From Bifidobacteriaceae bacterium (GTDB lineage: Bacteria > Actinomycetota > Actinomycetes > Actinomycetales > WQXJ01): 64,000 nucleotides of DNA. Below, one piece after another: positions 244 to 40,722 of this stretch. The notes beneath the pieces are model-generated. The model ran no database searches. It was not told where the DNA came from and saw only the letters and a program-made list of their open reading frames with translations. Location: NCBI GenBank assembly GCA_031270825.1, contig JAISXH010000036.1:1-64000 (forward strand), given 5' to 3'. How positions within the stretch are numbered: the first letter of the stretch is position 1; each line of letters opens with the position of its first letter. A program made the translations under genes and the position numbers.

Positions 244-1008
244 TCAGGCGGCGCCGTCGAGGCGTTTGCGGTATTGCAGCGGGCTGTACCCGATCACCGA
301 CCTGAAGTGGTGGGCCAGCGCGCTTTGGTCATAGAAGCCGACTTCTTCGGCCACGGCGCAGACCGGCAGGTCGGTGTCGCGCAGCAGCTCGCAGGCCTTC
401 ATGACCCGGACGCGGACCTTGAACTGGCTGGGCGGCAGGCCATAGGCGGCCTTGAACTTGGTCTGGAACTGGCGGATGGACATCCGGCATAGCTGGGCCA
501 GTTCGTCAACGCTGAGGTCCTCGCCCGGATCGGCGCGCAGCCGGGCCACGGCGACATCGATGCCGCGGGGCGGCCGGGCCGATTCGGCGGCCGCGCGGTG
601 CTCCTGGATCGTGCCCATCAGACCGACCACCTGGCCCGAACGCGACCACAACGGGAACTTGTTGGTCAGGAACCAGTCCGGGATGCCTTCGGTGCTCAAG
701 AACAGTTCGACTATGCCGACCATGGGCCGCCCCGAGGACAGGACGGCATCGTCGTCGCGTTTGAACTTGGCCGCCAACCCGACTGGCAGGACGTCGAAAT
801 CGGTCCGCCCGATGAAGTCGTCCTCGGACTTGAAACCATAAAGCTGGGCCAGCCCCAGACTGGCGAAGAGGATCGCGCCAGTGCGGTCTTTGACGAAGAA
901 ATGCACGCCGCGAACATGGTCGAAGGCGGTGGTGAACTGCATCGGCGGATCCAGCAAGGACACCAATTCACGTTGGCGGGCCTTGCTTTCGGCGCGGCTA
1001 AGCGGCAT
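244..1008 (-). CDS. PAS-domain AraC-family transcriptional regulator
   Basis: A 254-residue regulator. Residues about 25-135 look like a PAS-type sensor fold (FDHVRGVHFFVKDRTG, later GQVVGLMGTIQEH). The C-terminal 100 residues are an AraC double helix-turn-helix with LSVDELAQLCRMSIRQFQ and the typical second half VCAVAEEVGFYDQSALAHHF. The reading frame stays open further upstream, but that part shadows the preceding thuA-like gene; the ATG at 1008 overlaps the thuA stop by 11 bases and fits the protein family. It is the last gene of the nine-gene mannoside run and is the likely local regulator of it, sensing a ligand through the PAS domain (inference). It lacks the cupin domain that many sugar-responsive AraC proteins carry. 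Confidence 0.85.
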   Translation of the reverse strand: MPLSRAESKARQRELVSLLDPPMQFTTAFDHVRGVHFFVKDRTGAILFASLGLAQLYGFKSEDDFIGRTDFDVLPVGLAAKFKRDDDAVLSSGRPMVGIVELFLSTEGIPDWFLTNKFPLWSRSGQVVGLMGTIQEHRAAAESARPPRGIDVAVARLRADPGEDLSVDELAQLCRMSIRQFQTKFKAAYGLPPSQFKVRVRVMKACELLRDTDLPVCAVAEEVGFYDQSALAHHFRSVIGYSPLQYRKRLDGAA

Positions 1009-1744
1009 CGCCAGCTCGTTCCAGCCATTCGACCAACCGCCCCAACAGGGCGATGTGCCCGGGCGCGCGGTAGCTGGGCAGGTCGTGCCCCAGGGCGCAG
1101 TAGGCCAGTGGCGATGCGCCCGTCTGGGAAACCCAGGCCAGAGGCTGGCGGGCGCCGTCGCGGTGGTGATAGGCCAAAGGCTTGACCCAATCGGCCAGGC
1201 TGAGTCCGGTGTAGAACTCATCCGCTATGGCGAAGTCGTCCAGGCCCGCCGCCAAGGGAGAGTCCTGGTCGATCAGGACCCGGCCTGGGCCGAGCGGCGG
1301 ATGGTAGCTCTGGTCGGGGATCCATTTGGCGCCCAGGCGGCGTTCCCATTCGGGGCAGTCGGCGAAGGCCGATGCCGCCGCGTGCAGCCCCAGCACCGGC
1401 TTGCCTTGGCCCAGCCAAGCGCGCAGGCCCAGGTCGGCTGCGGCGCTGGGGGCGGGGCCGGTTCCGGCCGCCGCTTCTCCCAGGCAGACGACCAACAGGT
1501 CGAAGTCGTCGCTCGGCTTCGGTGGCGCGTCAAGCTGATCAGGGACGGTCGGCGTGCCGGTCTGGGACGGCCCGGTGGCGCAGGACCGGCTGATCGAGGC
1601 CAAGGCCTCATCGACGTCCAGGCGGACTTGAGCCGTCCAGTCCCGGGCGGCCAACAAATCAGCCACCGCCAGCGCATTGGCGTGGTGGTCGTGCCAGGGA
1701 TCGGCGTAGCGGCCGCCGCCCGCCAGGATCAGCGCTGACTTCAC
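998..1744 (-). CDS. ThuA-like (glutamine amidotransferase fold) protein
   Basis: A 248-residue protein of the ThuA / trehalose-utilisation family, a class I glutamine-amidotransferase-like fold seen in sugar catabolic clusters. Family features are the N-terminal ALILAGGGRYADPWHDH, the central FDLLVVCLGEAA, and the C-terminal HALGHD/ALLGRLVEW-type segment. I chose the GTG at 1744, which overlaps the aldo/keto reductase stop as GTGA; the frame continues upstream but would run deep inside that gene. In rhizobia ThuA works with a Gfo/Idh partner (ThuB) in conversion of trehalose-type sugars to 3-keto forms. A Gfo/Idh gene also sits at the head of this operon. The exact reaction here is unknown. 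Confidence 0.8.
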   Translation of the reverse strand: MKSALILAGGGRYADPWHDHHANALAVADLLAARDWTAQVRLDVDEALASISRSCATGPSQTGTPTVPDQLDAPPKPSDDFDLLVVCLGEAAAGTGPAPSAAADLGLRAWLGQGKPVLGLHAAASAFADCPEWERRLGAKWIPDQSYHPPLGPGRVLIDQDSPLAAGLDDFAIADEFYTGLSLADWVKPLAYHHRDGARQPLAWVSQTGASPLAYCALGHDLPSYRAPGHIALLGRLVEWLERAGDAA

Positions 1745-2715
1745 CACGGCTGGTCCAAGGATTGCTGGAGCTCCGCCGGCAAGGGCGTCGAGGTGGCGGT
1801 GATGGCGGCTTCGAGTTGGGCCAGGGAACTGACTCCGACAATTGGCGCCACTGGAGTCGGCGCTCCGGTCATCCAGGCCAGCACCACTTGGCCGCGGGAC
1901 CAGCCGAGATCGGCGGCCACCCGGGTCAGCGCCTCCAGGCGCTTGGTCGAGCCAGGATGGTCGAAGGCCGGATTGATCGGCCGCTCGGGGCGGTCGTAGG
2001 CGCCCTCCATCTGAGGGGTGTAGGCCCAAATCTCCACCTCGGGGTTGTGGTCCACGTAGTCAAGAGTCTGGTCGTCAACCCAACCGAAGCGGTGATCGTG
2101 GATGTGGTCGCGCACGAACGGGCGCGGCTGCAGGTAGGAATAGCGCAGTTGCAGGGCAGTCGGGGTGGCTTGGCCGCTGACGGCGGCGATTGACCGGGCT
2201 CGCTCGACTCGCCACAGGGCCGCGTTCGAGTAGCCCCAACGGCGGGCGCTGCCGCCGGCGACGAGTTCGGTGAAGGCGGCGACGGTTTCGCCCTGCGGAA
2301 CCACATGATCGTCGCGGTGAGCCCAATACAGGTCCACATAGTCGGTGTGCATCCGTTCCAGGGAGTCGCGCAGCCCTTGTTTGACGACTGGGCCGGCCAA
2401 TCCCTCGGTGCCGGCCGGGTTCTTTTCCGGCGGAACCGCTTCGCAGCCCACTTTGGTGGCGATGGCGATCTGGGGGCGAACCCCGGGGTTGGCTTCCAGC
2501 CACCGTCCCAGCACCTGCTCGCTCTGGCCGCCGTGTCCGGATGGGGAGGACCAGTAGGCGTAGCAGTTGGCGGTGTCGAGCCAACGGCCACCCGCTTCGG
2601 CCCATCGGTCCAGGAGGGCGAAAGCGGTCGCCTCGGATGTGGTGGTGCCAAACCGCATGATCCCCAGGACCATCCGGGGACCGCCGTCAAGGGGTCCGGG
2701 CGCTGCTTCACTCAT
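1741..2715 (-). CDS. Aldo/keto reductase
   Basis: A 324-residue NADPH-dependent aldo/keto reductase with a TIM-barrel fold. The catalytic tetrad is present: Asp and Tyr in WLDTANCYAYW, Lys in ATKVG, and His in LYWAHRDD. The C-terminal cofactor region (VAPIVGVSSLAQLEAA) is also typical. Its ATG at 2715 shares one base with the TAA stop of the GH38 gene, and its stop overlaps the next gene as GTGA, so it is translationally coupled on both sides. In this operon it could reduce a keto-sugar formed by the Gfo/Idh enzyme, or the released aldose. Substrate is an inference from context only. Confidence 0.88.
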   Translation of the reverse strand: MSEAAPGPLDGGPRMVLGIMRFGTTTSEATAFALLDRWAEAGGRWLDTANCYAYWSSPSGHGGQSEQVLGRWLEANPGVRPQIAIATKVGCEAVPPEKNPAGTEGLAGPVVKQGLRDSLERMHTDYVDLYWAHRDDHVVPQGETVAAFTELVAGGSARRWGYSNAALWRVERARSIAAVSGQATPTALQLRYSYLQPRPFVRDHIHDHRFGWVDDQTLDYVDHNPEVEIWAYTPQMEGAYDRPERPINPAFDHPGSTKRLEALTRVAADLGWSRGQVVLAWMTGAPTPVAPIVGVSSLAQLEAAITATSTPLPAELQQSLDQPW

Positions 2716-5700
2716 TAGTCTTGCTCCTTCGTCGGGTCTGCGCCGCTAGGTGAGATGCGCAGCGTGGTGATCTGAAATGGGTCGAGCCGGACGGTCGCGC
2801 CGTCGGGACTGGTTGAAACCAGGGCGGAGCCGCTGGTGGCGCGTTCGAGCAGGTCGGTCTCATGGCAGGCGGTGGCGGCGAAGCCGAAGCCGAGACGGGT
2901 TTGGCGCCGCCCGCCGGCCGCTTCGTAGAGCCGCACCACCACGTCACCCGATCTGTCGTCGGCCAGTTTCACGGTGTCGATAATGGCGCCGGGATCGCTG
3001 CTCGTCACTAGCGCCGTGGTAGCGGCGCCGCGGTGGCTGCGGACAGGCCGCGCCATCAGGTAACCATGCCTGACCGCCTGGCTGGTCGGTCCCACTGCCA
3101 GCGCCACATCGATTCGATGTTCACCCTGGTCAGCGACGGGGTCTGGGAACTTTGGCGAGCGCAGCAGACTGGTTGACAATTCGGTGAAACCGGCCCCTCG
3201 CGCCGCGTCGGCGGACTTGCGCCGTCGAACGGAGTAGCCGGCCGGGCCGGCCCGGACCACGGCCAGGCCGAAGTCTGAGTCGCCGACATGCGCCCAGCGT
3301 TGAGCTGGGACTTCGAAGCGGGCTTGATCCCAGGAAGTGTTGGTGTGACTGGGGCGGGTCAACTGCCCGAATTGGATTCCGTAGCTGGCCTGCGGGCTGT
3401 GAACATCCAAGTCGAACGCCATCCGCAAGATGGAGTGTTCCTCGTGCCAATCGATCAGACTGGAGATTTCCACCACCGCCGAATCGCGCGCCAGGCCGAT
3501 CCGCTGCACCACCTGCGACCGGCCGAGGCTCTTGCGCAGGGCCACGGCCGTGTCATCGGCCTTGATCCAGTCGACGCCGTCCACCACCCGGATGCTGTCG
3601 CGGTCTTGGAGGTCAAGGTCCCAGGCATCCCAGCGGTTCGGTCGGTCTGCTCCCAGCGTCAGACGGTTTCCGCTCCCCCCTTGCACGATGCCGTTTCGGC
3701 CAGTCGCCAAGTCCAGCACAGCCACCAGGTGGCCCAGTTGGTCGATTTCGACTCGGAGCCGGTCGTTGGCGAGGATGAACCGGTCGCCGCTCGAAGTCAG
3801 TCGGGGCGGTGTGGCCGGGGCCGGCCGGCCGGCTGAGTGGCCGGGCACGCCGCCGGCTTCGAATGGCCCCGGATTGAACGTCAGTTCCGGATGGCGGCTT
3901 CCTGGGTGGCCGGCCAGGGCGGCTATCGCCGCCGTGATCAGGCGTTCCAGCCGCTGGCCTAGGCGTTCATGCAGGCGGGTGGCCTCGTCGTGGACCCAGC
4001 CGATGGCGGAACCAGGCAAGATGTCATGGAATTGGCCGGTCAGCGCCTGGCGCCAAATGTCCTCGAGTTCCTGGTGGGGATAGGCGCACCCGGTGCGGAC
4101 GGCAGCCGTGGCGGACCACAGCTCGGCTTCGTGGAGCAACGCCTCAGTCCGGGAATTGCCTCTCTTGGTCGCGGCCTGGGTGGTGAAGACCCCGCGATGA
4201 GCCTCCAAGTAAAGCTCGCCACACCAAACCGGCAGCCGCGCGGCATCGGTCAGCTGAACTGCCTCGGGCGACGGGGAGGCCTCGCGCGACCCGGCGGCCT
4301 CAGGCGACCCGGCGGCATCGCGCAACTGAGCGGTATCCGGCGACCGGGCGGCATCGGCGAAAAACTGGGCCGGGGAGGCTAGACGGACCGACGGCAATCC
4401 GGCCTGGTCGGCGGCGCGGCGGGCGCTGGCCAGCATGGCTCTGGTGGGACCGCCGCCGCCGTCGCCGTAGCCGAAAGGCAACAGCGAAGCGTTGAGCGCC
4501 TCCTTGTCGGCCGTGAGTGACTCGGAGCGGGCCAACTCGGCCGGGGTCAGCTCGGCGTTGTAGGTGCCGGCCGGGGGCATGTGGGCGAGCACGCGGGTGC
4601 CGTCGATTCCCTCCCACCAGAAGGTGCTCAAAGCGAAGGGGTTGGTGTCGTTCCAGGACAGCTTCTGGGTGACGAAGCGGTCGGTGCCCGCGGCCATCAT
4701 GATTTGAGGCAGGGCGGCGCTGTAGCCGAATGAGTCGGGCAGCCACGCCTCTTTCGGCTCGACCCCGAACTCCTCCTTGAAGAAGCGCTTGCCGAAGACG
4801 AACTGCCGGACCAAGCTCTCGCCGCCGGGCAGGTTGGCGTCCGCTTCGACCCACATGCCGCCCACCGGCGCCACCGTCCCGGTGGCCACGGCCTGGCGCA
4901 GCCTTCGCCACAAATCCGGATGGTCCTGTTTGATCCAGGCGAAATGCTGGGCTGAAGAGGCCGCGAAAACCCAGGTCGGGTCCTCTTCGAGCAGAGCCAG
5001 GGCATTGGCGAAGGTGCGCGCGGCTTTGCGCCGGGCCTCGCGAACGGGCCACAGCCAGGCGGTGTCGAGGTGGGCGTGGCCAACAGCGTAGACGCGGTGG
5101 GCGCCGGGTGAGGCCGGCAAATCGGTGACGCCGGCTAGAGCGACGCGGGCGGCGGCGGCGGTTTCGGCCGGTTTGGACGGGTCTAGGACTGTCGCCATGC
5201 GTCTGAGAGCCCAGACGGCGTTGGCGAACAGGCCACTGGCGGAGTCGAGTTGGTCGATCAAAGCGTCGACAAACTCGATGTCTTGGACGAGGTCCCAGAC
5301 CGTCCAATTGAGCTGAACCAGGTCGGCCCGGGCCAGCCGGTAGATCCCCGGGCCGTCATAGTCGCGCCAGCGGCCCTCGGGCGTTGCCAGGCCACGGCCG
5401 TCCGCGAGGGCGAAATCCGGGTTGGCGGCCGCTTCGAGGAGGAAGCTGAAGTCCGTCCCCGGGCTGGCCGCGATGGGCACGTGCCGATTGCGCGACGAAA
5501 CCCCCTTGAGCGCCGATCCGTCCGGCCGGTAGGCCAGGGCCTCGGCCCCGAAACCGGGCCGTCTCGGGTCGAAGCCCAAGTCGACCACCGCTTCATAGGC
5601 GGGACGGGGGCCCTGGCTGATCGGCCAGTCGGCCGGGACTGTGCCAGCCGCTTTGAACCAGGTGGTGCCCCAAGGGCGTCCCCACCGCCGGTCGGGGTCG

Positions 5701-5870
5701 AATGGCTGATAGGCCTGGCCCCTGGCGACGTCGAAGCCGACCGGCTCGCCGGCGGCGGCCCAGCAAGTCAGCCGTAGCGGCGTCCGGGCCTGAACCGCGG
5801 CCGACGTCAGCACGTCTTCGACCAGGCGGCGCGCTTTGAGGCGAATCTGGTCGGCGCTCGGTCCGGTCAT
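2715..5870 (-). CDS. GH38 alpha-mannosidase
   Basis: A 1,051-residue glycoside hydrolase family 38 enzyme, a retaining zinc-dependent alpha-mannosidase, probably cytosolic because no signal peptide is seen. The zinc motif HAHLDTAW starts at about residue 265, and the nucleophile is Asp379 in WLPDSFGYS. The N-terminal domain, three-helix region (AHRGVFTTQAATKRGNSRTE) and C-terminal beta domains follow in normal order. The ATG at 5870 has a perfect AGGAGG seven bases upstream, overlapping the permease stop codon. Residues about 501-543 are an unusual low-complexity insertion of SPDTAQLRDAAGSPEAAG-like repeats just before LPVWCGELYLE, where relatives have a short loop. It follows the two permease genes, so it probably cleaves the imported mannoside. 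Confidence 0.93.
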   Translation of the reverse strand: MTGPSADQIRLKARRLVEDVLTSAAVQARTPLRLTCWAAAGEPVGFDVARGQAYQPFDPDRRWGRPWGTTWFKAAGTVPADWPISQGPRPAYEAVVDLGFDPRRPGFGAEALAYRPDGSALKGVSSRNRHVPIAASPGTDFSFLLEAAANPDFALADGRGLATPEGRWRDYDGPGIYRLARADLVQLNWTVWDLVQDIEFVDALIDQLDSASGLFANAVWALRRMATVLDPSKPAETAAAARVALAGVTDLPASPGAHRVYAVGHAHLDTAWLWPVREARRKAARTFANALALLEEDPTWVFAASSAQHFAWIKQDHPDLWRRLRQAVATGTVAPVGGMWVEADANLPGGESLVRQFVFGKRFFKEEFGVEPKEAWLPDSFGYSAALPQIMMAAGTDRFVTQKLSWNDTNPFALSTFWWEGIDGTRVLAHMPPAGTYNAELTPAELARSESLTADKEALNASLLPFGYGDGGGGPTRAMLASARRAADQAGLPSVRLASPAQFFADAARSPDTAQLRDAAGSPEAAGSREASPSPEAVQLTDAARLPVWCGELYLEAHRGVFTTQAATKRGNSRTEALLHEAELWSATAAVRTGCAYPHQELEDIWRQALTGQFHDILPGSAIGWVHDEATRLHERLGQRLERLITAAIAALAGHPGSRHPELTFNPGPFEAGGVPGHSAGRPAPATPPRLTSSGDRFILANDRLRVEIDQLGHLVAVLDLATGRNGIVQGGSGNRLTLGADRPNRWDAWDLDLQDRDSIRVVDGVDWIKADDTAVALRKSLGRSQVVQRIGLARDSAVVEISSLIDWHEEHSILRMAFDLDVHSPQASYGIQFGQLTRPSHTNTSWDQARFEVPAQRWAHVGDSDFGLAVVRAGPAGYSVRRRKSADAARGAGFTELSTSLLRSPKFPDPVADQGEHRIDVALAVGPTSQAVRHGYLMARPVRSHRGAATTALVTSSDPGAIIDTVKLADDRSGDVVVRLYEAAGGRRQTRLGFGFAATACHETDLLERATSGSALVSTSPDGATVRLDPFQITTLRISPSGADPTKEQD

Positions 5871-5878
5871 ATCGCCTC

Positions 5879-6667
5879 CTACTTGAGAGCGCCGGCGGCC
5901 AGGCCGCGTTCGAACATCTTCTGCAGGCTGAGATAGACCACGATCTCCGGTATAGCCGTGATCACAGCCGCTGCCAGGACTTTGGTTTGATCCTGGGAGA
6001 ACTGGCCGATGAAGAACTGCGGCAACTGGGTGATGGTCTGAGTGGACGGCTCCTGCAGGAGCACCAGCGGGAACAAGTACTCGTTCCAGGCCTGGACAAA
6101 GGTCAAAACCACAATGGTGGCGGCGATCGGTTTCGACATCGGCAGGATCACGTAGCGGAAGACCTGGCGGGTCCTTAGTCCGTCGATCCGGGCCGCGTCG
6201 AGCAGATCGTCCGGTATGCCGTCCACAAAAGTGCGCGCGAACAGGACTGTGAAGGGGATTTGCAGGGCCGCGAGCGGCAGGATCACGGCCCAATAGGTGT
6301 TGTAGAAGCCCAGTTTCAAAGTCGTCGAAAACAAGGTCGGCAAGAGGATCGCCCCGGGCAGGGTCAGGCAGGCCAGGAGCATCCAGAAGATGATCTCTTT
6401 ACCGCGTACGTGGAGCTTTGAGAACGCGAAGGCGGCTGCCATGGTGCAGGCGTAGACCAAAGCGACCGTGGTCACCGCGATGATGATCGAGTTCCGGAAG
6501 AACAGCGGCAGTTCCGGGCGCGACAAGACGGCCTCATAGTTGCCCCAGCCTTGGCCGGCGAAGGACCCTTGGACCATCACCACGATCGGAAAGGCGTAGG
6601 GGATGGCCATCAGGGTGACGATCACCTGCAGGGTCAGGCGCTTGCCCTTGCCGCGGACCTCAAACAT
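5879..6667 (-). CDS. Carbohydrate ABC transporter permease (MalG type)
   Basis: A 262-residue inner-membrane permease of the CUT1 sugar importer family. It has about six hydrophobic segments and the ATPase-docking EAA loop DAARIDGLRTRQVFRYVILP about 75 residues from the end, plus the C-terminal FERGLAAGALK typical of MalG homologues. The ATG at 6667 overlaps the end of the MalF-type gene by eight bases. It forms a heterodimeric channel with that protein and receives sugar from the binding lipoprotein encoded two genes upstream. No ATPase gene is present in the operon. Confidence 0.93.
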   Translation of the reverse strand: MFEVRGKGKRLTLQVIVTLMAIPYAFPIVVMVQGSFAGQGWGNYEAVLSRPELPLFFRNSIIIAVTTVALVYACTMAAAFAFSKLHVRGKEIIFWMLLACLTLPGAILLPTLFSTTLKLGFYNTYWAVILPLAALQIPFTVLFARTFVDGIPDDLLDAARIDGLRTRQVFRYVILPMSKPIAATIVVLTFVQAWNEYLFPLVLLQEPSTQTITQLPQFFIGQFSQDQTKVLAAAVITAIPEIVVYLSLQKMFERGLAAGALK

Positions 6668-7721
6668 GGCTCGCCTCCGTCCGCCGGGCCAATCGCGAGA
6701 ACAGGATCGACAGTCCCACAGCTAGCACCAGCAGCACTATCGATGCGGCGGCGCCGTAGCCGACCTTGGCCAGAGTGATCGATTGGCGGTAGATGAACGT
6801 GCTCATCACCTCGGTCGAGTAGTTCGGGCCGCCGGCGGTAACCAGGAAGGGCAGGTCGAAGGTCTTCAGGGCCCCGATGATCGAGAGCATGAACAGGGCG
6901 ATGGTGGTGCCGCGTGCGCTTGGCAGGGCGATGTGCAGCAACGAGCGGAAATTGCCGGCGCCATCGAGCCGTGCGGCCTCCAAGGTCTCCGGATCGACCT
7001 GGCTGAAGGCCCCGTAGTAGAGGATGAACGTCAGGCCGGTGAACTCCCAGACTTGCAGCGCCATGATCACCAGCAGGGATGTGTTCGAATCGGCGATCCA
7101 TGGGTGCGTCAGCGCCCCTAGGCCAAGGTGCTCCAAGACCCAGTTCAGTTGGCCATGGGCGCCGAAGATCTGGCGAAAGACGGGAGCCATGATGGCCGGC
7201 GCCAAGACGACCGGGATGAAAATGATGACTTTGTACAGCGCCGCCAGACGAACTCGCGAGTGCAGCATGGCCGCGAAGGCGATCCCCAAAGTGGTTTGGA
7301 CCGAGAAAGTCACCACGAAGTACAAGCCGCAATGCGCCAGCGCCCGCCAGAAGATCTGGTCCTGAAACAGTTCGACGTAGTTGCCGGCCCCGACCGCCGT
7401 GGGCTCGGGGCTGACCCCGTCCCAGTCCAGGGTCGAAGTCCGCGCCGTGTCGATCAAGCAGAAGTAGAGCAGTCCGATCGACACCAAGACGGCGGGCGCG
7501 AGCCAGGCGTAGCCGGGCCGCTGGACCCGGTAGCTGCGGCGGCCGCCGGCACGACCGCCGCCGGCACGACTGGCGCCGCCACGACTGCCGCCACCGCCAC
7601 GACTGCCGCCACCGGCACGACTGGCGCCGCCGCCACGACTGCCGCCGCCACCACGACTGCCGCCGCCAAGACCGCCGCCGGTGTGGCGGTCGGTCGTGGC
7701 GGCGGCCCCGATTCTGGCCAT
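6660..7721 (-). CDS. Carbohydrate ABC transporter permease (MalF type)
   Basis: A 353-residue MalF-type permease with six or seven hydrophobic segments and an EAA loop (ETLEAARLDGAGNFRSLLHI). I chose the ATG at 7721, five bases after the binding-protein stop; an upstream ATG at 7754 would overlap that gene by 28 bases. The first 60 residues are odd: a cytosolic tail of Gly/Ser/Arg/Ala repeats (GGGSRGGGGSRGGGASRAGG and similar) encoded by short imperfect DNA repeats at about 7530-7685. Sugar permeases usually start with a brief basic tail, so this region looks like a recent repeat expansion. Confidence 0.92.
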   Translation of the reverse strand: MARIGAAATTDRHTGGGLGGGSRGGGGSRGGGASRAGGGSRGGGGSRGGASRAGGGRAGGRRSYRVQRPGYAWLAPAVLVSIGLLYFCLIDTARTSTLDWDGVSPEPTAVGAGNYVELFQDQIFWRALAHCGLYFVVTFSVQTTLGIAFAAMLHSRVRLAALYKVIIFIPVVLAPAIMAPVFRQIFGAHGQLNWVLEHLGLGALTHPWIADSNTSLLVIMALQVWEFTGLTFILYYGAFSQVDPETLEAARLDGAGNFRSLLHIALPSARGTTIALFMLSIIGALKTFDLPFLVTAGGPNYSTEVMSTFIYRQSITLAKVGYGAAASIVLLVLAVGLSILFSRLARRTEASHV

Positions 7722-7726
7722 GGAAC

Positions 7727-9088
7727 CTAGCCCTGCAGTGTTTCCTGCAGCCATTCCACAGCGTCGGCCGGACTTTGTTCACCAGCGGCGACTGCGGAGG
7801 CTGCCTGACCCAGCGAATCGATCACCGCCGGATCGTGTTCCATGCCGCGACCCTCCGTCGACTGCTTGCACTCGCCGATCAGTTCCTCGATCGGCTCGCG
7901 TTGAACGTCCGGGTTGACCAATCCAGCGGCCTGCCAGTCAGTGCTGACCGAGGCCAGCGCGGGGATGTTGTTGAGTTGATCGGCCACTAGCTGTTGGCCT
8001 TTGGCGGATGTGGTCAGCCAGATGGCGAAGGTTGTCGCGGCCTTCGGATTCCGAGCCTTCTTCGAGACGGCCAGACCGTAGTCGGCGGCGCCGAACCAGG
8101 CCCCTGGCGTCCCGTCTTCGTAGGCGGCGGGGAAGGCGATGGGCACAACCGTGAACGGCTCCGGGTTGGACACGCCGGCGCCTTCAATGGCGGGGACCAT
8201 GACGGCCTTGGTCGCGTACTGCGCGTACCATTGCCCCATTTGTATCATCGCGTACTGTTGCGATAGGAACATATTATTAGCATCCGGATAATGGGTGACC
8301 CCCTGCGCGCCATCTTCCATTATCCCGTCTGAGAACATTCTCTCCCAGGCGGCAAAGGCCTGGATGATTTCTGGTTGCGTCCAGTCCTCTTCACCGGCTA
8401 AGACATCTGCGAACAGGCCCGGTTTGATAGTGTCCGCAATTGCCTGAATGATGTCGCGGTTGAAAGCGGCATCTTGTGCGCCGTGGACAAAACACCCGGC
8501 GCCTTGCGCTTTGAATTCCGCGCAGACATCAACCCATTCGTCGAAGGTGGTTGGCGGTTCTAGGCCGTAGCGGTCAAACATTTCCTGGTTGATCCACACG
8601 GGGCCGGCGTAGTTCAGACCCACCGGAACCGCTTTGAGTTCGCCGTTCTCATCGATGAGCGGATCGGCGGCGGTCAACAGCAGCTTTGATTTCCAATCTG
8701 ATCCGAGGGCTTCTTCGATCGCCGCGGTCATGTCGGATCCGAACTGCGCGAACAATCCGTAGGTGACGCCTGGGGCGATCCCGAATAGATCGGGTCCTTG
8801 GTCTGACGCCAGGGCCGGGCGCATGACGGACTGATAGTCGGCCAGCCCGACTTGCTTGAATGTCACTTCGATGTCGGGATATTCCTCGTTGAAGGCGTTG
8901 ATGTAGGTGTCGGCGATGACCTGTTCGGCGGGCGTCCAGCCCCACCAGGTCACCTGGCCTTGGGTGGCCGAGTCTGTGGGCGTGTCCTTGTCGGGGTCGC
9001 CGCAGGCGGAGGCCCCGGCGACGAGCAGGCCGGCTGTCACGAGGATCGCGGCGGCGCGCCGTGCTGCTTTAGATGTGTTCTGTGGCAT
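7727..9088 (-). CDS. Extracellular sugar-binding lipoprotein of ABC importer
   Basis: A 453-residue solute-binding protein (family 1, CUT1). The N-terminus has a basic start, a hydrophobic stretch, and a lipobox-like end (LVAGASAC), so it is predicted to be lipid-anchored outside the membrane. The mature part starts GDPDKDTPTDSATQGQVTWW and keeps the usual central sequence for oligosaccharide binders. The ATG at 9088 is preceded by AAGGAG at good distance; an earlier in-frame ATG at 9115 lacks this. A segment with lower GC (about 8240-8500) is visible within the gene. It delivers the substrate to the permeases directly downstream. Confidence 0.93.
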   Translation of the reverse strand: MPQNTSKAARRAAAILVTAGLLVAGASACGDPDKDTPTDSATQGQVTWWGWTPAEQVIADTYINAFNEEYPDIEVTFKQVGLADYQSVMRPALASDQGPDLFGIAPGVTYGLFAQFGSDMTAAIEEALGSDWKSKLLLTAADPLIDENGELKAVPVGLNYAGPVWINQEMFDRYGLEPPTTFDEWVDVCAEFKAQGAGCFVHGAQDAAFNRDIIQAIADTIKPGLFADVLAGEEDWTQPEIIQAFAAWERMFSDGIMEDGAQGVTHYPDANNMFLSQQYAMIQMGQWYAQYATKAVMVPAIEGAGVSNPEPFTVVPIAFPAAYEDGTPGAWFGAADYGLAVSKKARNPKAATTFAIWLTTSAKGQQLVADQLNNIPALASVSTDWQAAGLVNPDVQREPIEELIGECKQSTEGRGMEHDPAVIDSLGQAASAVAAGEQSPADAVEWLQETLQG

Positions 9089-9101
9089 GGTGTTTCTCTC
9101 C

Positions 9102-10007
9102 TTAGGTTCGGCCAATTGGTTTGTCTGACGGCGCCGGCGCCGGCACGCCAGCGCTGGTCCCCGCCCCCCACCTGGCGCTCAAGAAATCGATGGCGTCGCG
9201 CTGCAATTGGCGGGGCGACCCGAACACGGGTCGCCACAAGGACAGGGTGCCGGCCAATGCCGGATCGTCATCGGTCTTGAACGCTTCGACAATCACCGCG
9301 CCGGTGTAGCCGCTTCGGGCCAGGGCTGTCAGCACCTGGTCCCAAGGGATGTGTCCGGCGCCCGGCGTGCCGCGGGTGTTCTCCGAGGCTTGAAACGACA
9401 AGATCTTGCCGGCGGCGGCGATTATGGCCCCGGTGAGGGACTCCTCTTCGATGTTCATGTGAAAGGTGTCCAGGGCCACCCCGACATTGCTGGCGCCGAC
9501 TTCGGCGCACATCCGCAAAGCCTGATCCACGGTGTTGACCAGGTCCGATTCGAAGCGGTTGAGCGGTTCTACCGCCAGCGCGATCCCCAGCGCATCGCCC
9601 CGGGCGGCAGCCGACTTCAGTCCCTGGACGGCGTGGTCCCATTGGCGCAGGCGTTCGCTTGGGCTGGCCGGCTGGGCCAAGCCGACGGCCGAATACATGG
9701 GGCCGGCCACCACCTTGGCGCCCAGGGCGGCCGCGAACTCGATGCATTCGGCCAGGTAGGCCAGGGCATCCCGGCGCTGGGCCGGCGACCCGCTGGAGAT
9801 GTTGCGGCCGCCAGTGAAGTCGCCGGCGACGGCCAGCTTCAATCCCACCTCTTCGGCCGCCCGCTTGATCAATGGGGCGTGGACCAGTTCGGGGTTCTGG
9901 TAGGCGATTTCGACCAGGCCGTATCCCAGTTCGGCCACGGCCGGGAAATGCTTGGTCAGATCGTCGGTCATGGGCGAGCCGAGGATGAATGAACTCAAAC
10001 CGATCAT
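9102..10007 (-). CDS. Sugar 3-epimerase-like TIM-barrel protein (YcjR/psicose epimerase type)
   Basis: A 301-residue protein of the xylose-isomerase-like/AP endonuclease 2 superfamily, closest by eye to D-psicose/D-tagatose 3-epimerases. Family signatures are AVEPLNRFE, VGVALDTFHMNIEE and ENTRGTPGAGHIPWD. Metal ligands Glu (in EPLNRFE), Asp (in LDTFH) and the late Glu (in IVEAF) are present, but the expected His before SENxRG is Gln at residue 206 (SFQASEN). The ATG at 10007 overlaps the Gfo/Idh stop as ATGA. Position next to a Gfo/Idh gene and ABC sugar genes resembles ycjR in E. coli, where the enzyme acts on 3-keto-glycosides. Role here is inferred. Confidence 0.85.
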   Translation of the reverse strand: MIGLSSFILGSPMTDDLTKHFPAVAELGYGLVEIAYQNPELVHAPLIKRAAEEVGLKLAVAGDFTGGRNISSGSPAQRRDALAYLAECIEFAAALGAKVVAGPMYSAVGLAQPASPSERLRQWDHAVQGLKSAAARGDALGIALAVEPLNRFESDLVNTVDQALRMCAEVGASNVGVALDTFHMNIEEESLTGAIIAAAGKILSFQASENTRGTPGAGHIPWDQVLTALARSGYTGAVIVEAFKTDDDPALAGTLSLWRPVFGSPRQLQRDAIDFLSARWGAGTSAGVPAPAPSDKPIGRT

Positions 10008-11218
10008 GATTGGACGCCTGTGTCGGTGGTCGTTTGCCCGGCCAGGCCGGACAAACCCCGCCAAGGAGGTTCGGTCGACTGATCCAACTGGACCACTTCG
10101 CTGTGCTGGCGCTCGGAGATGGTCCAACGGGGCAGGGCGACGCGCAGGCCGCCGGACAGGGCCGATTGGTGTGAGCAGATGCCGGCGCCGGTGATGTTGG
10201 CGGCCTGAATCGCGTCGGGGTATGGATCGGCCTCACCCGACACGGCTCTGATCAGGCGATCGGCCAAGTGGGGATGGGAGCCGCCGTGGCCGCTGCCCTG
10301 GATGAAGGAAAGATGGGCCGTCTCGCCGTCGGAGCTGTAGACGCCCTCGGTGGTGAAGCGGCGGATCTCCGCTGGCAGTCGATCCGCGAAGTCGGGGACG
10401 CTGACCCGCTCGGGTGTCTCCCCGGTGTAGATCACGTGTCCGGCGCCGTGCACCTGCTCCCATTCGAACGAGCGCAGCGATCCATAGACGTCAAAGCTCT
10501 CCCGATACTGGCGGGCCACCGCCCACAAGCTGCGAGTGACCTCTCCGCGCAAGTCTGAGTCCTTCATGCCGAGCGTGGTCGATTCCACCGCAAACGGCGA
10601 ACCGTAGCTGTCCTGCATGCGTTGGAATACCTGACCCGATCCGGAACACTGCACCCATAATGTTTGATTGTCCGCCAAGCACAGGATCGGGGAGATCGCG
10701 TGCGTGGCATTATGCATCGGCGGCAGACCTTCCCAGTAAGCCGGCCATCCGGTCATGTCTTGCACATGCGACGAACGCAGGAACTGCAACTTCCCTAGCT
10801 CGCCGGAACGGTATAGCTGTTGCACAAAGAGGAACTCGCGGCTGTAAACCACGGTCTCCATCATCATGTAGACCAGGCCAGTCTCTTTCTGGGCGTCGAC
10901 AACGCGCTTGCAGTCTTCCAGGCTGGCGGCCATCGGAATGGTGCAGCCGACATGCTTTCCTGCTCGAAGGGCCGCCACCGAATGATCGGCGTGCATGTGC
11001 AAGGGGGTGTTAATGTGGATCAGGTCGATCTCTGGATCCGCGAGCATGTCCTCGAAGCGGTCGTAGCGAACGTCGACGCCGAATTCGTCCCCGACCGCAT
11101 TCAGGCGCGCGGCCGAGCGCTGGCAAATCGCGCGCATTTCAGCGTTGGGGTGCGCTTGGTAAATCGGAATGAACTCGGCTCCGAACTCAAGTCCGACTAT
11201 CCCGACGCGCGGCTTCAT
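10004..11218 (-). CDS. Gfo/Idh/MocA-family sugar oxidoreductase
   Basis: A 404-residue NAD(P)-dependent dehydrogenase, first gene of the mannoside run. The Rossmann start is VGIVGLEFGAEFIP; the substrate-domain His lies in MHNATHAISP. The EKP motif that usually carries the catalytic/cofactor lysine is replaced: the sequence is GKHVGCTIPMAASLEDC, with Ile94 where Lys would be. A C-terminal metal- or substrate-loop with SHPHLADRLI follows. The ATG at 11218 has GGGGAAGG just upstream. By analogy with YcjS and ThuB it may oxidise a sugar or glycoside at C3, but the altered motif leaves the chemistry open. Confidence 0.85.
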   Translation of the reverse strand: MKPRVGIVGLEFGAEFIPIYQAHPNAEMRAICQRSAARLNAVGDEFGVDVRYDRFEDMLADPEIDLIHINTPLHMHADHSVAALRAGKHVGCTIPMAASLEDCKRVVDAQKETGLVYMMMETVVYSREFLFVQQLYRSGELGKLQFLRSSHVQDMTGWPAYWEGLPPMHNATHAISPILCLADNQTLWVQCSGSGQVFQRMQDSYGSPFAVESTTLGMKDSDLRGEVTRSLWAVARQYRESFDVYGSLRSFEWEQVHGAGHVIYTGETPERVSVPDFADRLPAEIRRFTTEGVYSSDGETAHLSFIQGSGHGGSHPHLADRLIRAVSGEADPYPDAIQAANITGAGICSHQSALSGGLRVALPRWTISERQHSEVVQLDQSTEPPWRGLSGLAGQTTTDTGVQS

Positions 11219-11801: not shown

Positions 11802-11815
11802 TGGAAGCGCTTCCA
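11802..11815. promoter_or_regulatory. LacI-type operator palindrome TGGAAGCGCTTCCA
   Basis: A perfect 14-bp palindrome with the central CG typical of LacI-family operators. It lies 15 bases upstream of the -35 element of the DUF222 promoter and in the region shared with the mannoside operon. Its inner ten bases (GAAGCGCTTC) are identical to the palindrome in front of the GH3 gene at 40618, which adjoins a lacI-type gene. Confidence 0.7.
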
Positions 11816-19489: not shown

Positions 19490-19588
19490 CGGGGATAGTC
19501 TGGGGGCGGATGGTACTGTTTAGCGGGGACACGTGTACCGACGTGGGCTAAAGGTGGTTGTGTGAGGTTTCAGCACGAGGAGGCAGAA

Positions 19589-22500
19589 ATGAACCAATTC
19601 AGGACTAGCGCGCATAGCGCGGCGTCTGGCAGGGGAACCCGCTCGGGTAAAGAGCGGCGGGCTTTGGCGCAGAGGGTCACCGCAGTGACCCTGTCGGTGG
19701 CGCTGGCGGGCACCGGCCTGGTGCTGGCCCAGCGCGCGCCCGAGGCGCACGCCGCCCGGACTCCGCACAGCCACACTTTCACGTCTGCCCAGCTCACCTA
19801 TACGCTGCCGGCCAACGCCGTCGACATCACGATCGAGGTCTGGGGCGGCGGCGGTGCCGGCGGCGGGGCGCGAGCCTGCGGTGGTTGGGACGGATGGGGG
19901 ACCTGGGGGAATCAGGCGAAAACCGGCACTGCGGCTGGTGGTGGTGGCGCTGCTGGCGCCTACACCACTTACGGGGTGCCAGCCTACGGGAAGGCGCTGC
20001 TTCTGACCGCGACCTTAGGAGACGGTGGGACCAGCAGTGTCATTTCGAACACACTAGGCGACGGGGCCACCGACACGCCGGAGCCGGGCACGGGTGCGGC
20101 AGGCGCTCTCTCAAAGGTGGTGGCGACCGCCGGAGGCACCAAAGTGGACGAGGTCTCGGCCGCCGGCGGAGATGGTGGCTACGGTGCCAGTGTGAATGCC
20201 GGCACCGCTAATCTGCAAGCGGCGGGCACCGGCGGCGCCGGCCCCGGCGCCGCCGGCGACGCGGGCAGCGCCCCAACCAACACGACAACGGCCAAGGGCG
20301 GTGCCGGCGGCGCCCCCGCCGTAAGTGGCGGTTCGGCGGCGCAGGGAATAGAGGTTACCGGCAACTCCGCGAGCGCGGGCAACTCCGGCGTTGCTCCGGG
20401 TGGTGGCGGCGCCGGCGCCAGCGCTCGGGCCACTAACTCCAACTACTGGGATAGCTGCCAGGGCAGCGCCGGCTCCCGCGGCGCCCAGGGTGGGGCGAAG
20501 GTCACTTATTACACCTATGATCAGGCGGTCACCTTCGAGCCGGCCGCCACTAAGACTTTGAAGGGTCGTGGCGCTCTGGCTGGTGAGAGCTTCAAGTTCG
20601 AGATCACGCCCACGGGCACAACCACCCCGGCGGCCGTGGCCGCCGGGAATGTGGTGTTGCCGGCGCAGCAGGCGACCTTGAGCGGACCGTTCGACGTGGA
20701 CACCCCACAGACTGTGAACTTCGGGGATATCACTTTCAAGACGCCGGGGACCTACGAGTTCCTGGCCACAGAGGTCGCCGTGAACACGGGTCCGGGGGTG
20801 TCTAAGACGGCTAGTTCTTTCGGTTTCACGGTGAAGGTCGAGGATGTTGCGGGGACGTTGACTCCCACGCCCACTTATCCCCTTGGCGGGATCGCGTTTG
20901 TGAACCAGTATGTGGCTTCGTCGGTGGATCTGGTCTTGACTGGCTTCAAGGAGCTGACCCCCGACGATTCTTTGCTCAAACCGGATGATCCGAAGGAGAA
21001 GTTCGAGTTCACGTTGGCGGGCGTGGGCGGAGCGCCGGTTCCGTCTTCTTTGACGGCGAAGAATGACGAGTCTGGCACGATTGATTTCGGCTTGGTGACT
21101 TACGAGTTGGATGATCTTGGCGGGCAGGCTTCTAAGACGTTCACCTATACGGTGACTGAGAAAGCCACTTCTATCGGCGGGGTGGACGACGACCCGAATC
21201 CGGTGAAGACTTTCACGGTCACGGTGGCGGATGATCGGACCGCGGCCGCGTTGGAGGTGACCGCGACCAGTCCGGCGAGCCCGGATCGGTTGTTCCAGTT
21301 CACTAACACTTACAGCGCCGATGAGGCGGTCTTGGCGCTGCCGCAGGCGTCGAAGACGATCGCCGGGCGTGGCTTCTTGAGCACCGATTCGTTCAGTTTC
21401 GACCTGACGACGACGTCGGCGAACCCGCCGGACGGTATTGAGAACAACACCGGGACCCAAACCGAGTCGGTCGGCGGCGCGGGGGGCGCCACCAAGACGT
21501 TCAACTTCGCGGACATCGAGTTCTCCAGGCCTGGCACCTATGTGTTCGGGATCGCGGAGGACTTGACCGGCCTTCCTGGGGCCTTGTCGCCTGATGACGG
21601 CACTTGCGCTTTCACGGTGAGCGTGACCGACGACGGCGCCGGCCAGCTAGACGCCGCGATCACTAGCACGGATCCCAGTCCCGTGGCGGAGTGTTTCGCG
21701 TTTGAGAACACTTACACTCCGGATGCGGCGGAGTTGGAAGTCAACGGCCTCAAGTCGTTGGTGTTCGACCCGTCCGACGCTCCTTTGGATTTGACGTTGG
21801 CGGATTTGGTGTCTGACTACACCTTCACGCTGACCGCGCTGGACGGCGGCCCGATGCCTGACGGTTGCGGCGCCTTGTCTTGCCCAGTGTCGATGGACGC
21901 GTCGGGGGCTATCGATTTCGGCAAGGCCGTGTTCGCCAAGAGCCTCCTGCCCACGGGCGATATGCAGCGGGATTTCGAGTATCGGGTGGTCGAGGCCGGC
22001 TCGCATGGCGGGGTGGTCAACGATCCGAATGCGGCTGTGTTCACGGTTAGTCTGACGGACGACGGTTCGGGGAAGCTGGACGCGAAAGTCGTCACGCCGG
22101 CTAGCGGCCCCACGTTCAGTTTCACCAACACCTATGCGGTCGAAGGCGTGGAGACGAATCCGATCGACGCGAACAAGACCCTCGACAACCGCGATTTCAA
22201 CGCCGACGAGTTCGATTTCGTGATCACAGCCTTGGATCAGGACACCAAGGCCGCGGTGACCGCCGGTTTGGTGGTGTTGCCGCCTCAGGTCCAGGTTTCG
22301 GGCGGCGCGGCTGGCGTGGCGGAGGCGTTCGCGTTCGACCCCATTTGGTTCGCCAGGCCGGGTGTGTACTCGTTCCGGGCGAGCGAGTTGCCTGGGCTGC
22401 CGGCCCACATCAACCCGACTGTCAATTTCCACGATTTCACCGTGACGGTCACCGACAACAAGGACGGGACTTTGTCGGCGGTCCCGGGCTATCCGAGCGG

Positions 22501-39350: not shown

Positions 39351-40430
39351 CTAAACGTTGGAGATGCTGGTTGGCGCCGGTGCTGGTGCTGGTGTCGGCG
39401 GCGCTGGCGGCGGTCCTGAGCTGTCCCTGACCACCAGCCGACACGGCAGCAACACCGATGCCGGCTCGCGTTCCAGGTCGGGCGGCGTCTGCAGGGCCTC
39501 GATCAGCAGGCGGGCGCCCATCTGGCCCAGTTCGATCGCCTGCGGCTCAAGGGTCGTCAACTTGGGGCGGAACATCTCGGTGACGCGGGTCGAGGAGGCG
39601 ATCGACACGACCGAGAAGTCGCGCGGCACGGACGCGCCGATGCGTTCTATGGCGCTGAGGACCCCGACGGTGGCGCGGTCGTTCATAATGGCGATGCCGG
39701 TCAGGTCGGGGGCGGTCTCCAGCAGTTCGCGGAAGGCGGCTTCTCCAGATTCGGAGTCCTCGCCGCAGGGGCGCTCCAGGTAGGCGACCGAGAACTCTTC
39801 CGCGGCCCGTCTCAAGGCCGCCGCCGCCCGCACTGACGGGCCATAGGCGGTCGACATCTCAGAGGCCGAGTGGTTCAGGAAAGCGATCTTGCGGTGGCCG
39901 AGTTTGGCCAGGTGCTCGACGGCGTCTCTGCCGGTCTGGTCGAAGTCGATGTCGGCGCAGTCGATCCCGTCCGGGTCCCGCGGCCGGCCGATCATCGAGA
40001 AGGGTATGCCGGCGTTGCGCAGCAGGGGGATGCGTTCGTCATCCAAGCGCACCTCCATCAGGATGGCGCCGGCGATCAATCCGCCTTTGTTCAGCGCCTC
40101 GACCTGGCCGGCCGTGTTGGAGTTGGTCACCGACAGGACCAGTTGGTGGCCTAGCTCCTTGGCGGCCTGGGCGGCCCCGGTGGCGAACTCCATCTCGGTG
40201 AAGCCGATTCCGCGCTGGGATTCGGGCAGCAGCAGGGCCACCACGCGCGACCGCCGGCTGGCCAGGCCGCGGGCCAATTCGTTGGGTTTGTAACCGAGTT
40301 CGGCGATGGCCCGAAGAATGCGTTTGCGGGTCGACGGGGATATGGTGCGTTGACCGCTGAGGGCGTAGGAGACGGTGCTGGGAGCCACATTGGCTCTTCT
40401 GGCGACGTCGATCATCCTGGGGTTGGCCAC
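39351..40430 (-). CDS. LacI-family transcriptional repressor
   Basis: A 359-residue repressor. The N-terminal helix-turn-helix is [20 protein letters not shown], followed by the hinge [15 protein letters not shown] and a periplasmic-binding-protein-like sensor ([26 protein letters not shown]-like). The GTG at 40430 follows GGAAAGGAAAG; the frame is open to 40481 but that start adds a non-conserved stretch. The C-terminal 20 residues are Pro/Ala-rich. It is read divergently from the GH3 gene, and a 14-bp operator-type palindrome sits between them. It probably controls the GH3-ABC-GH31 locus in response to a sugar. Confidence 0.92.
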
Positions 40431-40587
40431 CGGCTTTCCTTTCCATTCGACTGCTTGCAGCTTACGCCGGGTCCCTGTCATTTCGCCGACACCAGCCTCC
40501 GCCGGGGCGGCCCGGGCCTCAGTCCGCGCCGAACCCCCATGTCAGCCGTTCGCCTTCAGTGTCCACGTTGCAGTTGGGCCACAGCTA

Positions 40588-40618
40588 TTGACGGGGGGCC
40601 GACCGGGTGCGGTAGTAT
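40588..40618 (+). promoter_or_regulatory. Promoter of the GH3 sugar locus
   Basis: TTGACG (40588-40593) and TAGTAT (40613-40618) are separated by 19 bases, slightly longer than ideal. The predicted start falls within the operator palindrome at 40618-40631, so repressor binding would occlude initiation. Confidence 0.6.
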
Positions 40619-40631
40619 CGAAGCGCTTCGA
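40618..40631. promoter_or_regulatory. LacI-type operator TCGAAGCGCTTCGA
   Basis: A perfect 14-bp palindrome with a central CG, placed over the predicted start site of the GH3 transcript and 187 bases upstream of the divergent lacI-type gene. It shares the inner GAAGCGCTTC with the site at 11802. Confidence 0.8.
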
Positions 40632-40722
40632 GTCCCGCGGCGGGGGGGTGTCGGCTCGCTCAAATTCATCGGCAGTGTTGCCGCAACGGCCAAGCTGCCG
40701 CAACCGAAGGGAATCAAAGGAG

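Follow-up and report, generated by a model that had tools for sequence, protein, structure and literature searches.

A proposed glycoside-uptake operon in a Bifidobacteriaceae bacterium, with a Gfo/Idh-fold protein that may work like GH109 glycosidases

According to PMC11701701, CAZy holds only five families of NAD-dependent glycosidases, namely glycoside hydrolase (GH) families GH4, GH109, GH177, GH179 and GH188. In the GH109 enzyme AmGH109A, His404 acts as base/acid when C3 is oxidized and reduced, while His259 takes part in cleavage and Tyr226 is the base at C2; the catalytic acid-base lies in a conserved GGHGG loop, according to a work cited there by title (PMC10755693). In ArSqgA, from GH188, Lys107 is found at the C3 hydroxyl (PMC10755693). 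In levoglucosan breakdown, Gfo/Idh and TIM-barrel proteins perform oxidation, elimination, hydration and reduction (PMC7676230, PMC10066097). The Escherichia coli ycj genes (PMC11543891) were the model used in a preliminary description of the locus studied here. This locus is an operon at one end of a window of 64,000 nucleotides from a Bifidobacteriaceae bacterium (GCA_031270825.1, contig JAISXH010000036.1, positions 1 to 64,000). It encodes a Gfo/Idh/MocA-fold protein (hereafter Gfo), a sugar epimerase, the solute-binding protein (SBP) and two permeases of an ATP-binding cassette (ABC) transporter, a GH38 alpha-mannosidase, an aldo/keto reductase (AKR), a ThuA-like protein and an AraC-family regulator.

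We suggest, with slightly less than even confidence, that this operon serves the uptake of a glycoside and was assembled around a portable cassette, in which a GH109-like Gfo would cleave by redox chemistry in company with GH38, epimerase and reductase steps. We infer the activities, their order and the substrate as follows. A small glycoside that contains mannose would enter through the ABC importer, and the GH38 enzyme would take off an alpha-mannosyl residue. Gfo, keeping its NAD+ bound, would oxidize C3, eliminate the aglycone, add water and reduce the sugar again, being a glycosidase rather than a net dehydrogenase. The sugar set free, a keto or epimeric form and perhaps a rare one, would be converted by the epimerase and the AKR for central metabolism, the ThuA-like protein would handle the same 3-keto-type intermediate, and the AraC-family protein, with its PAS domain, would sense the substrate or an intermediate. 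A route through a C3-oxidized sugar had already been proposed in the preliminary description and is probably correct, while the kinship of Gfo with GH109 was absent from it.

The alignment of Gfo comprised 98 sequences, from the window and 97 other loci (loci and genomes are numbered with L and G, respectively). In all 98 the lysine position of the EKP motif is occupied by Val or Ile, and the window protein has T93-I94-P95 at the usual EKP site. The window Gfo combines a Rossmann half with an HGGSHPH loop (His311), in which His311, Gly313, Ser314, His315, Pro316 and His317 are invariant (98/98), Gly312 is found in 97/98 and Gly310 in 95/98. His173, also present in 98/98, aligns with the His of the YPxH motif of GH109-like frames. 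Within the family frames (n = 125, duplicate loci included) GHGG occurs in 119 and the other 6 hold HGGSHPH. Among 45 other Gfo/Idh frames GHGG was found in only 3, the GH109-like L178, L179 and L180, and in none of the remaining 42, among which are YcjS and 6 orthologues of levoglucosan dehydrogenase. Ten BT2158-like frames contain the HGG motif in no case and QKP or EKP in seven. The E[KR]P string was searched anywhere in the frame and in a few rows (e.g. L037, L040, L115) is not at the motif position. Lys107 of ArSqgA would be the EKP lysine that the window Gfo has lost.

The three GH109-like frames came from 198 genomes of the phylum, searched with a fragment of 2ixa, a GH109 N-acetylgalactosaminidase, to which they are 42-48% identical; the window Gfo was the fourth match of this search (35%). 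When a profile of 27 family sequences was compared with PDB chains, the best match was 2ixa (88.5 bits), followed by DgpA (86.1 bits), and a second stretch of the 2ixa match spans the GHGG loop. At the EKP position, 2ixa reads EVS. General models match such Gfo proteins weakly, as dehydrogenases. The specific dehydrogenase types did not fit: Gfo reaches 61.7 bits against a 650-bit cut-off for levoglucosan dehydrogenase (NF052479) and 23.2 bits against a 750-bit cut-off for the BT_2158-type glycoside 3-dehydrogenase (NF058561), with BT2158-like rows placed elsewhere in the tree. A levoglucosan dehydrogenase of the NF052479 type was not found in its own genome at 1e-150, and 6 of 297 genomes do have a match. 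The YcjS-type glucoside 3-dehydrogenase was rejected on the lost lysine, since YcjS reads CEKPP; the alignment of both proteins shows 27% identity over only 115 residues. The search for a BT_2159-type protein was uninformative, as neither the 10 genomes nor the controls gave a match.

An AlphaFold model of Gfo (pLDDT 85.9, pTM 0.86) aligned best with two GH109 structures, 6t2b_C (Z 37.0) and 2ixa (Z 36.8), both with a root-mean-square deviation (rmsd) of 2.5 over 345 residues. They were followed by 5uhw_A (Z 35.6, rmsd 2.7, 333 residues) and levoglucosan dehydrogenase 6a3g_D (Z 35.2, rmsd 2.8, 332 residues), with the GH188 structure 8qc5_B lower (Z 34.2, rmsd 3.0, 334 residues). Three trees were built, and the Gfo family grouped with GH109 in all of them. 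In the first (72 rows, with YcjS and other long rows) both were split from all others with support of 100/98, leaving YcjS outside in the only tree that holds it. Support was 100/99 in the second (30 rows, without the long rows and YcjS) and 99/98 in the third (32 rows, with six of the ten BT2158-like frames and without YcjS). In the second tree, approximately unbiased (AU) tests rejected the rival groupings of GH109 with levoglucosan dehydrogenases (p 0.0028), with planctomycete Gfo (p 0.0030) and with another group (p 0.0018), as well as that of the family with levoglucosan dehydrogenases (p 0.0030). GH177 and GH179 were left out of the tree sampling, and GH188 was compared by fold only.

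Several points weigh against a GH109-like Gfo. His173 is not diagnostic, being also found in ordinary members such as YcjS, and His151 and Gln153 of the window protein occupy the sites of 2ixa Tyr179 and His181; a counterpart of the C2 tyrosine was not located. Identity to GH109 is only 17-19%, and no GH109-named Pfam model matched the 27 family sequences at E <= 1, in a library whose holding of such a model was unchecked. In Foldseek the top match was a scyllo-inositol dehydrogenase, with 2ixa in 27th and 6t2b in 33rd position. The Z lead of GH109 over ordinary dehydrogenases is 1.2-1.4, and, as the fold is common to the whole superfamily, Z alone proves nothing. All three trees raised a long-branch warning (treekit), the GH109 stem is long, and GH109 is represented by three frames chosen by similarity to the 2ixa fragment, two of them listed by the ORF (open reading frame) filter. 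The cassette of L029 adjoins a CUT2 transporter, which suggests a monosaccharide-sized substrate, less fitting for a glycosidase. Even so, we favor a Gfo that sides with GH109 glycosidases rather than with 3-dehydrogenases and that would work like GH109; it may or may not be a member of GH109 itself, given an identity below 20% and the absence of a GH109-named Pfam match. A further step, which we take with some reserve and would not yet bet on, is that Gfo represents a new and widespread NAD+-dependent glycosidase family, sister to GH109, and that in several lineages its cassette with PAS-AraC, Gln-type epimerase and ThuA couples redox cleavage to the handling of keto sugars; here an ABC importer, the AKR and a GH38 enzyme would have been recruited to it. 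In our scan the Gfo family is mostly found in Planctomycetota, with further members from Actinomycetota, Acidobacteria, Spirochaetes, Gammaproteobacteria and Pelagicoccus.

Eighty loci with a Gfo relative were surveyed, and within 6 kb an epimerase relative was found in 15 and a ThuA-domain protein in 9. An AraC relative is present on the Gfo locus in L028, L029, L033, L034, L035, L039, L041, L042 and L057. Beside Gfo, AraC is accompanied by an epimerase in L029, L033-L035, L039, L041, L042 and L057, as it is in the operon of L028. Most of the 80 loci, chiefly from Planctomycetota, have none of these neighbors. In Arthrobacter (L029) the neighbors are AraC, the epimerase and a CUT2-type (ribose-type) importer. 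AraC is divergent from the epimerase and Gfo, which are followed by a ThuA-DUF7133 protein, in Marinimicrobium, Gilvimarinus, Cellvibrio and Pelagicoccus. In L029, L033 and L035 AraC combines PAS_4 with the AraC helix-turn-helix, the same architecture as in the window. The trio of PAS-AraC, epimerase and Gfo, which we regard as a portable cassette, recurs in Arthrobacter, marine Gammaproteobacteria and Pelagicoccus, the latter two having a ThuA domain in addition. The link to ThuA made in the preliminary description is strengthened, because Gfo-epimerase-AraC cassettes elsewhere adjoin a ThuA-domain protein; the annotated E. coli ycj stretch contains no ThuA gene. The window ThuA-like protein has 21% identity with the ThuA domain of L033 over 136 residues, and no PDB relative of it was found by sequence. 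In the marine cassettes tblastn detected no AKR at a distance of up to 6 kb, and in L033 an MFS protein is next in line.

The ThuA-DUF7133 proteins of L033, L034 and L035, of about 1,200 residues and scanned whole, contain ThuA, DUF7133, HEAT and cytochrome c domains (genes at L033 11183-14692, L034 3494-7069 and L035 11151-14717), and they may be periplasmic sugar oxidases. In many planctomycete loci (e.g. L037, L040, L046, L072-L074) the family member is accompanied, at a distance of about 600-900 bases, by another Gfo/Idh gene, which runs divergently on the opposite strand and is mostly of the ordinary EKP type.

The nearest related operon, L028, belongs to the Bifidobacteriaceae bacterium isolate Md513_bin16 and is the same locus as L133 of genome G182. 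It has the same order of Gfo, epimerase, SBP, two permeases, AKR and AraC, with identities of 72, 52, 71, 73, 81, 65 and 69%, respectively. GH38 and ThuA are missing, with no space left for either, and the G182 genome (69% complete) gave no match for GH38. The exact set of nine genes was seen only in the window. Within the family, Gfo is present in 2 of 18 genomes (G000 and G182) and GH38 in 3 of 18 (G000, G112 and G070); within the order, the figures are 20/297 for a Gfo relative and 117/297 for GH38, which is common. In the fetched neighborhoods of the order no GH38 gene stands directly beside a Gfo relative. The cassette is also missing from the neighborhoods fetched for the closest relatives of GH38 and AKR, except that in L173 about 15 kb separate a Gfo with 37% identity from a GH38 gene. 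Neighborhoods were read by tblastn with the window proteins, and the picking of longest frames as ORFs is poor at high GC, so other kinds of genes are under-described. As the sister operon lacks GH38 and ThuA, the mannosidase is accessory rather than core, and the former view of an operon centered on alpha-mannoside catabolism was set aside. GH38 may tell what this strain imports, not what the core enzymes do. The AKR belongs to the local core, because a 65% identical copy is found in the sister operon.

The epimerase is nearer to ketose 3-epimerases than to YcjR, both by profile (3vyl, 226.4 bits, against 116.9 bits) and by sequence search (126 against 57 bits), with 26% identity to YcjR. By fold, the ketose 3-epimerase 8yeb_I gives Z 37.3 (rmsd 2.1, 285 residues) and YcjR Z 29.9 (rmsd 2.3, 254 residues). 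Glu147, Asp180 and Glu241 are invariant among 12 aligned sequences. At the fourth site, which we take to be that of a metal ligand, the window epimerase has Gln206, while ketose epimerases and YcjR have His. Gln is found in this column in 13 of 15 epimerases from cassettes or near-cassettes, and His in L055 and L093. The set of four ligands of ketose 3-epimerases (Glu/Asp/His/Glu) is thereby incomplete; the D-psicose 3-epimerase model gives 158.4 of 300 bits. In AtOGE, the position of the metal ligand His189 probably corresponds, judging from the fold, to the Gln206 column; this residue is essential there, H189A having less than 0.1% activity (PMC10628242).

These features of the epimerase bear on a stepwise oxidation, elimination, hydration and reduction like that of levoglucosan. 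Gfo would produce a free 3-keto-glycoside, the TIM-barrel protein (with ThuA) would be the beta-eliminase/hydratase, the AKR would reduce the 3-keto-hexose and GH38 would only trim mannose. The gene types and the ABC transporter fit such a layout, Gln206 separates the protein from true ketose epimerases, and in Bacillus smithii the eliminase and hydratase are LgdB1 and LgdB2, which carry the annotation sugar phosphate isomerase/epimerase (PMC7676230). However, Gfo is no levoglucosan dehydrogenase, by both its score and the AU test, and has no EKP lysine, the epimerase fold is closest to ketose 3-epimerases, and the homologous metal His needed in AtOGE (PMC10628242) is replaced by Gln; we consider this explanation unlikely.

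It is also doubtful, to our judgment, that the operon serves plain catabolism of a rare sugar, in which Gfo would be a dehydrogenase acting on a polyol or a sugar, the epimerase a ketose 3-epimerase and the AKR a ketose reductase, with GH38 there by chance rearrangement. The GH109-type loop, the loss of the EKP lysine, the grouping with GH109 in the trees and the metal-site Gln of the epimerase all disagree with it, even if the scyllo-inositol dehydrogenase at the top of the Foldseek matches, the nearest kin of the epimerase, the CUT2 transporter of L029, the MFS protein of L033 and the absence of GH38 and ThuA from L028 speak for it. An epimerization of the intact glycoside as in ycj, with C3 oxidation, epimerization at a neighboring carbon, re-reduction by the AKR and hydrolysis of the resulting alpha-mannoside by GH38, shares with E. 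coli ycjNOPQRS the transporter class, the enzyme roles and the fold of YcjR, but is improbable in view of the short Gfo-YcjS match, the lost lysine, an epimerase closer to ketose epimerases and a sister operon without GH38, and the analogy with ycj drawn in the preliminary description is not supported at the protein level.

Returning to the GH109-like operon that we prefer, its accessory GH38 protein looks complete, with four domains; it has no evident signal peptide and would act in the cytoplasm. It contains HAHLDTAW, PDSFG and FHDILPG, which agree with the HxHxD, PD and HD motifs usual in GH38 alpha-mannosidases, and its nearest solved relative is the alpha-mannosidase 7ufs. The AKR has DTANCY, TKVG and WAHRD, which we recognize as patterns of its family.

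As previously described, the nine ORFs are all on the minus strand and tightly spaced, and Pfam places each protein in the expected class above cut-off (Table 1). The claim of gaps of at most 13 bases or overlaps also stands, the widest being the 13 bases between epimerase and SBP. At the remaining junctions the genes either are 8 bases apart or share 1-11 bases; only SBP and permease 1 would share more, namely 28 bases, if the latter begins at 7754. A lipobox-like ASAC is seen by eye near the SBP N-terminus, and no ATPase gene is found within the operon.

Table 1. Position of the operon genes and of the upstream palindrome in the window.
Feature	Coordinates	Strand	Basis and remarks
Gfo/Idh/MocA-fold protein, putatively GH109-like	10004..11218	-	Pfam PF01408, alignment, PDB profile, model, trees
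TIM-barrel sugar epimerase, ketose 3-epimerase type	9102..10007	-	Pfam PF01261
ABC transporter SBP, CUT1 type	7727..9088	-	Pfam SBP_bac_1 / SBP_bac_8
ABC transporter permease 1	6660..7754	-	Pfam BPD_transp_1; start possibly later than 7754
ABC transporter permease 2	5879..6667	-	Pfam BPD_transp_1
GH38 alpha-mannosidase	2715..5870	-	four GH38 Pfam domains above cut-off
AKR	1741..2715	-	Pfam PF00248
ThuA-like protein, GTG start	998..1747	-	Pfam PF06283, 52.9 bits (cut-off 33.4)
AraC-family regulator, N-terminal PAS_4	244..1008	-	Pfam PF08448, PF12833, PF00165
Perfect palindrome TGGAAGCGCTTCCA	11802..11815		presumed LacI-operator type

In permease 1, 18-base repeats (7542-7680) encode a Gly/Ser/Arg-rich N-terminal extension, which appears shorter in L028. 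One end of a contig of 84,692 bases forms the start of the window, so the gene content beyond AraC lies outside it. The terminal 243 bases have no gene call and contain a tandem repeat of a 28-base unit (5-94, 3.2 copies) at the very end of the contig, with no further copy in the window; this repeat is perhaps the reason for the assembly break. The palindrome TGGAAGCGCTTCCA is located 584 bases ahead of the Gfo start and about 50 ahead of a divergent HNH gene, and is a candidate operator of the Gfo operon. A second LacI-operator-like palindrome, with 2 mismatches, occurs at 40618-40631 near a LacI-like gene (39351-40481, by eye), whose product could be a regulator at both. A conserved LacI operator was rejected, since the 12-base core of the palindrome has no match in L028 at <=2 mismatches. 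An RNA switch in the ~650 bases before Gfo was also set aside, as the whole window had no Rfam match at gathering thresholds.

Two further genes of the window were noted by eye, both on the plus strand. The first (19562-25063) encodes a protein of 1,833 residues with repeated pilin-like domains (VFTNTY-type) and an LPWTG sorting signal. The second (40375-46434) encodes a GH3-like protein in which a long collagen-like stretch (GEPGEP) is followed by a C-terminal LPFTG sorting signal, contains tandem repeats at 45989-46272, and adjoins LacI, SBP, two permeases and a GH31-like gene (families also by eye).

In the open literature, by title or start of the abstract, we found no description of this Gfo family or of the cassette, and nothing on the function of ThuA. 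If the proposed reading is correct, many genomes carry an unassigned glycosidase, able to cleave bonds perhaps beyond the reach of classical enzymes, and in the conserved cassette partners and a regulator are at hand for finding its substrate. If the GH109-like reading fails, the operon would still be a clean test of Gfo/Idh function without the usual lysine.

Compared with known systems, Gfo resembles GH109 (2ixa, 6t2b) in its fold, in the GHGG loop with its His and in the absence of the EKP lysine, and its Glu121, Arg236, Asp276 and His173 are kept in two aligned GH109-like frames. It differs in the low identity, in SHPH after the loop, where GH109 has MDY, and in His151/Gln153 in place of Tyr179/His181; moreover, the operon has no N-acetyl-hexosamine context. 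The GH188 sulfoquinovosidases (SqgA) are likewise NAD+-dependent glycosidases of the Gfo/Idh fold. The lgdA-B1-B2-C system of B. smithii shares with the window a Gfo/Idh protein, TIM-barrel 'epimerases' and an ABC transporter (PMC7676230), whereas the window has a Gfo far under the LgdA model cut-off, a single TIM-barrel protein and a GH38 enzyme. The ketose 3-epimerases (L-ribulose, D-allulose, D-tagatose) have the fold of the window epimerase (Z 36-37 over ~280 residues) and three of its four metal-ligand sites in common, and differ from it at Gln206. E. coli ycj (YcjNOP, YcjQRS) also contains an SBP, two permeases, an epimerase, a Gfo/Idh protein and a second reductase. The window, in contrast, has GH38 instead of phosphorylases and an AKR instead of YcjQ, with ThuA and the PAS-containing AraC in addition, and YcjS and YcjR are not the nearest kin of its Gfo and epimerase.

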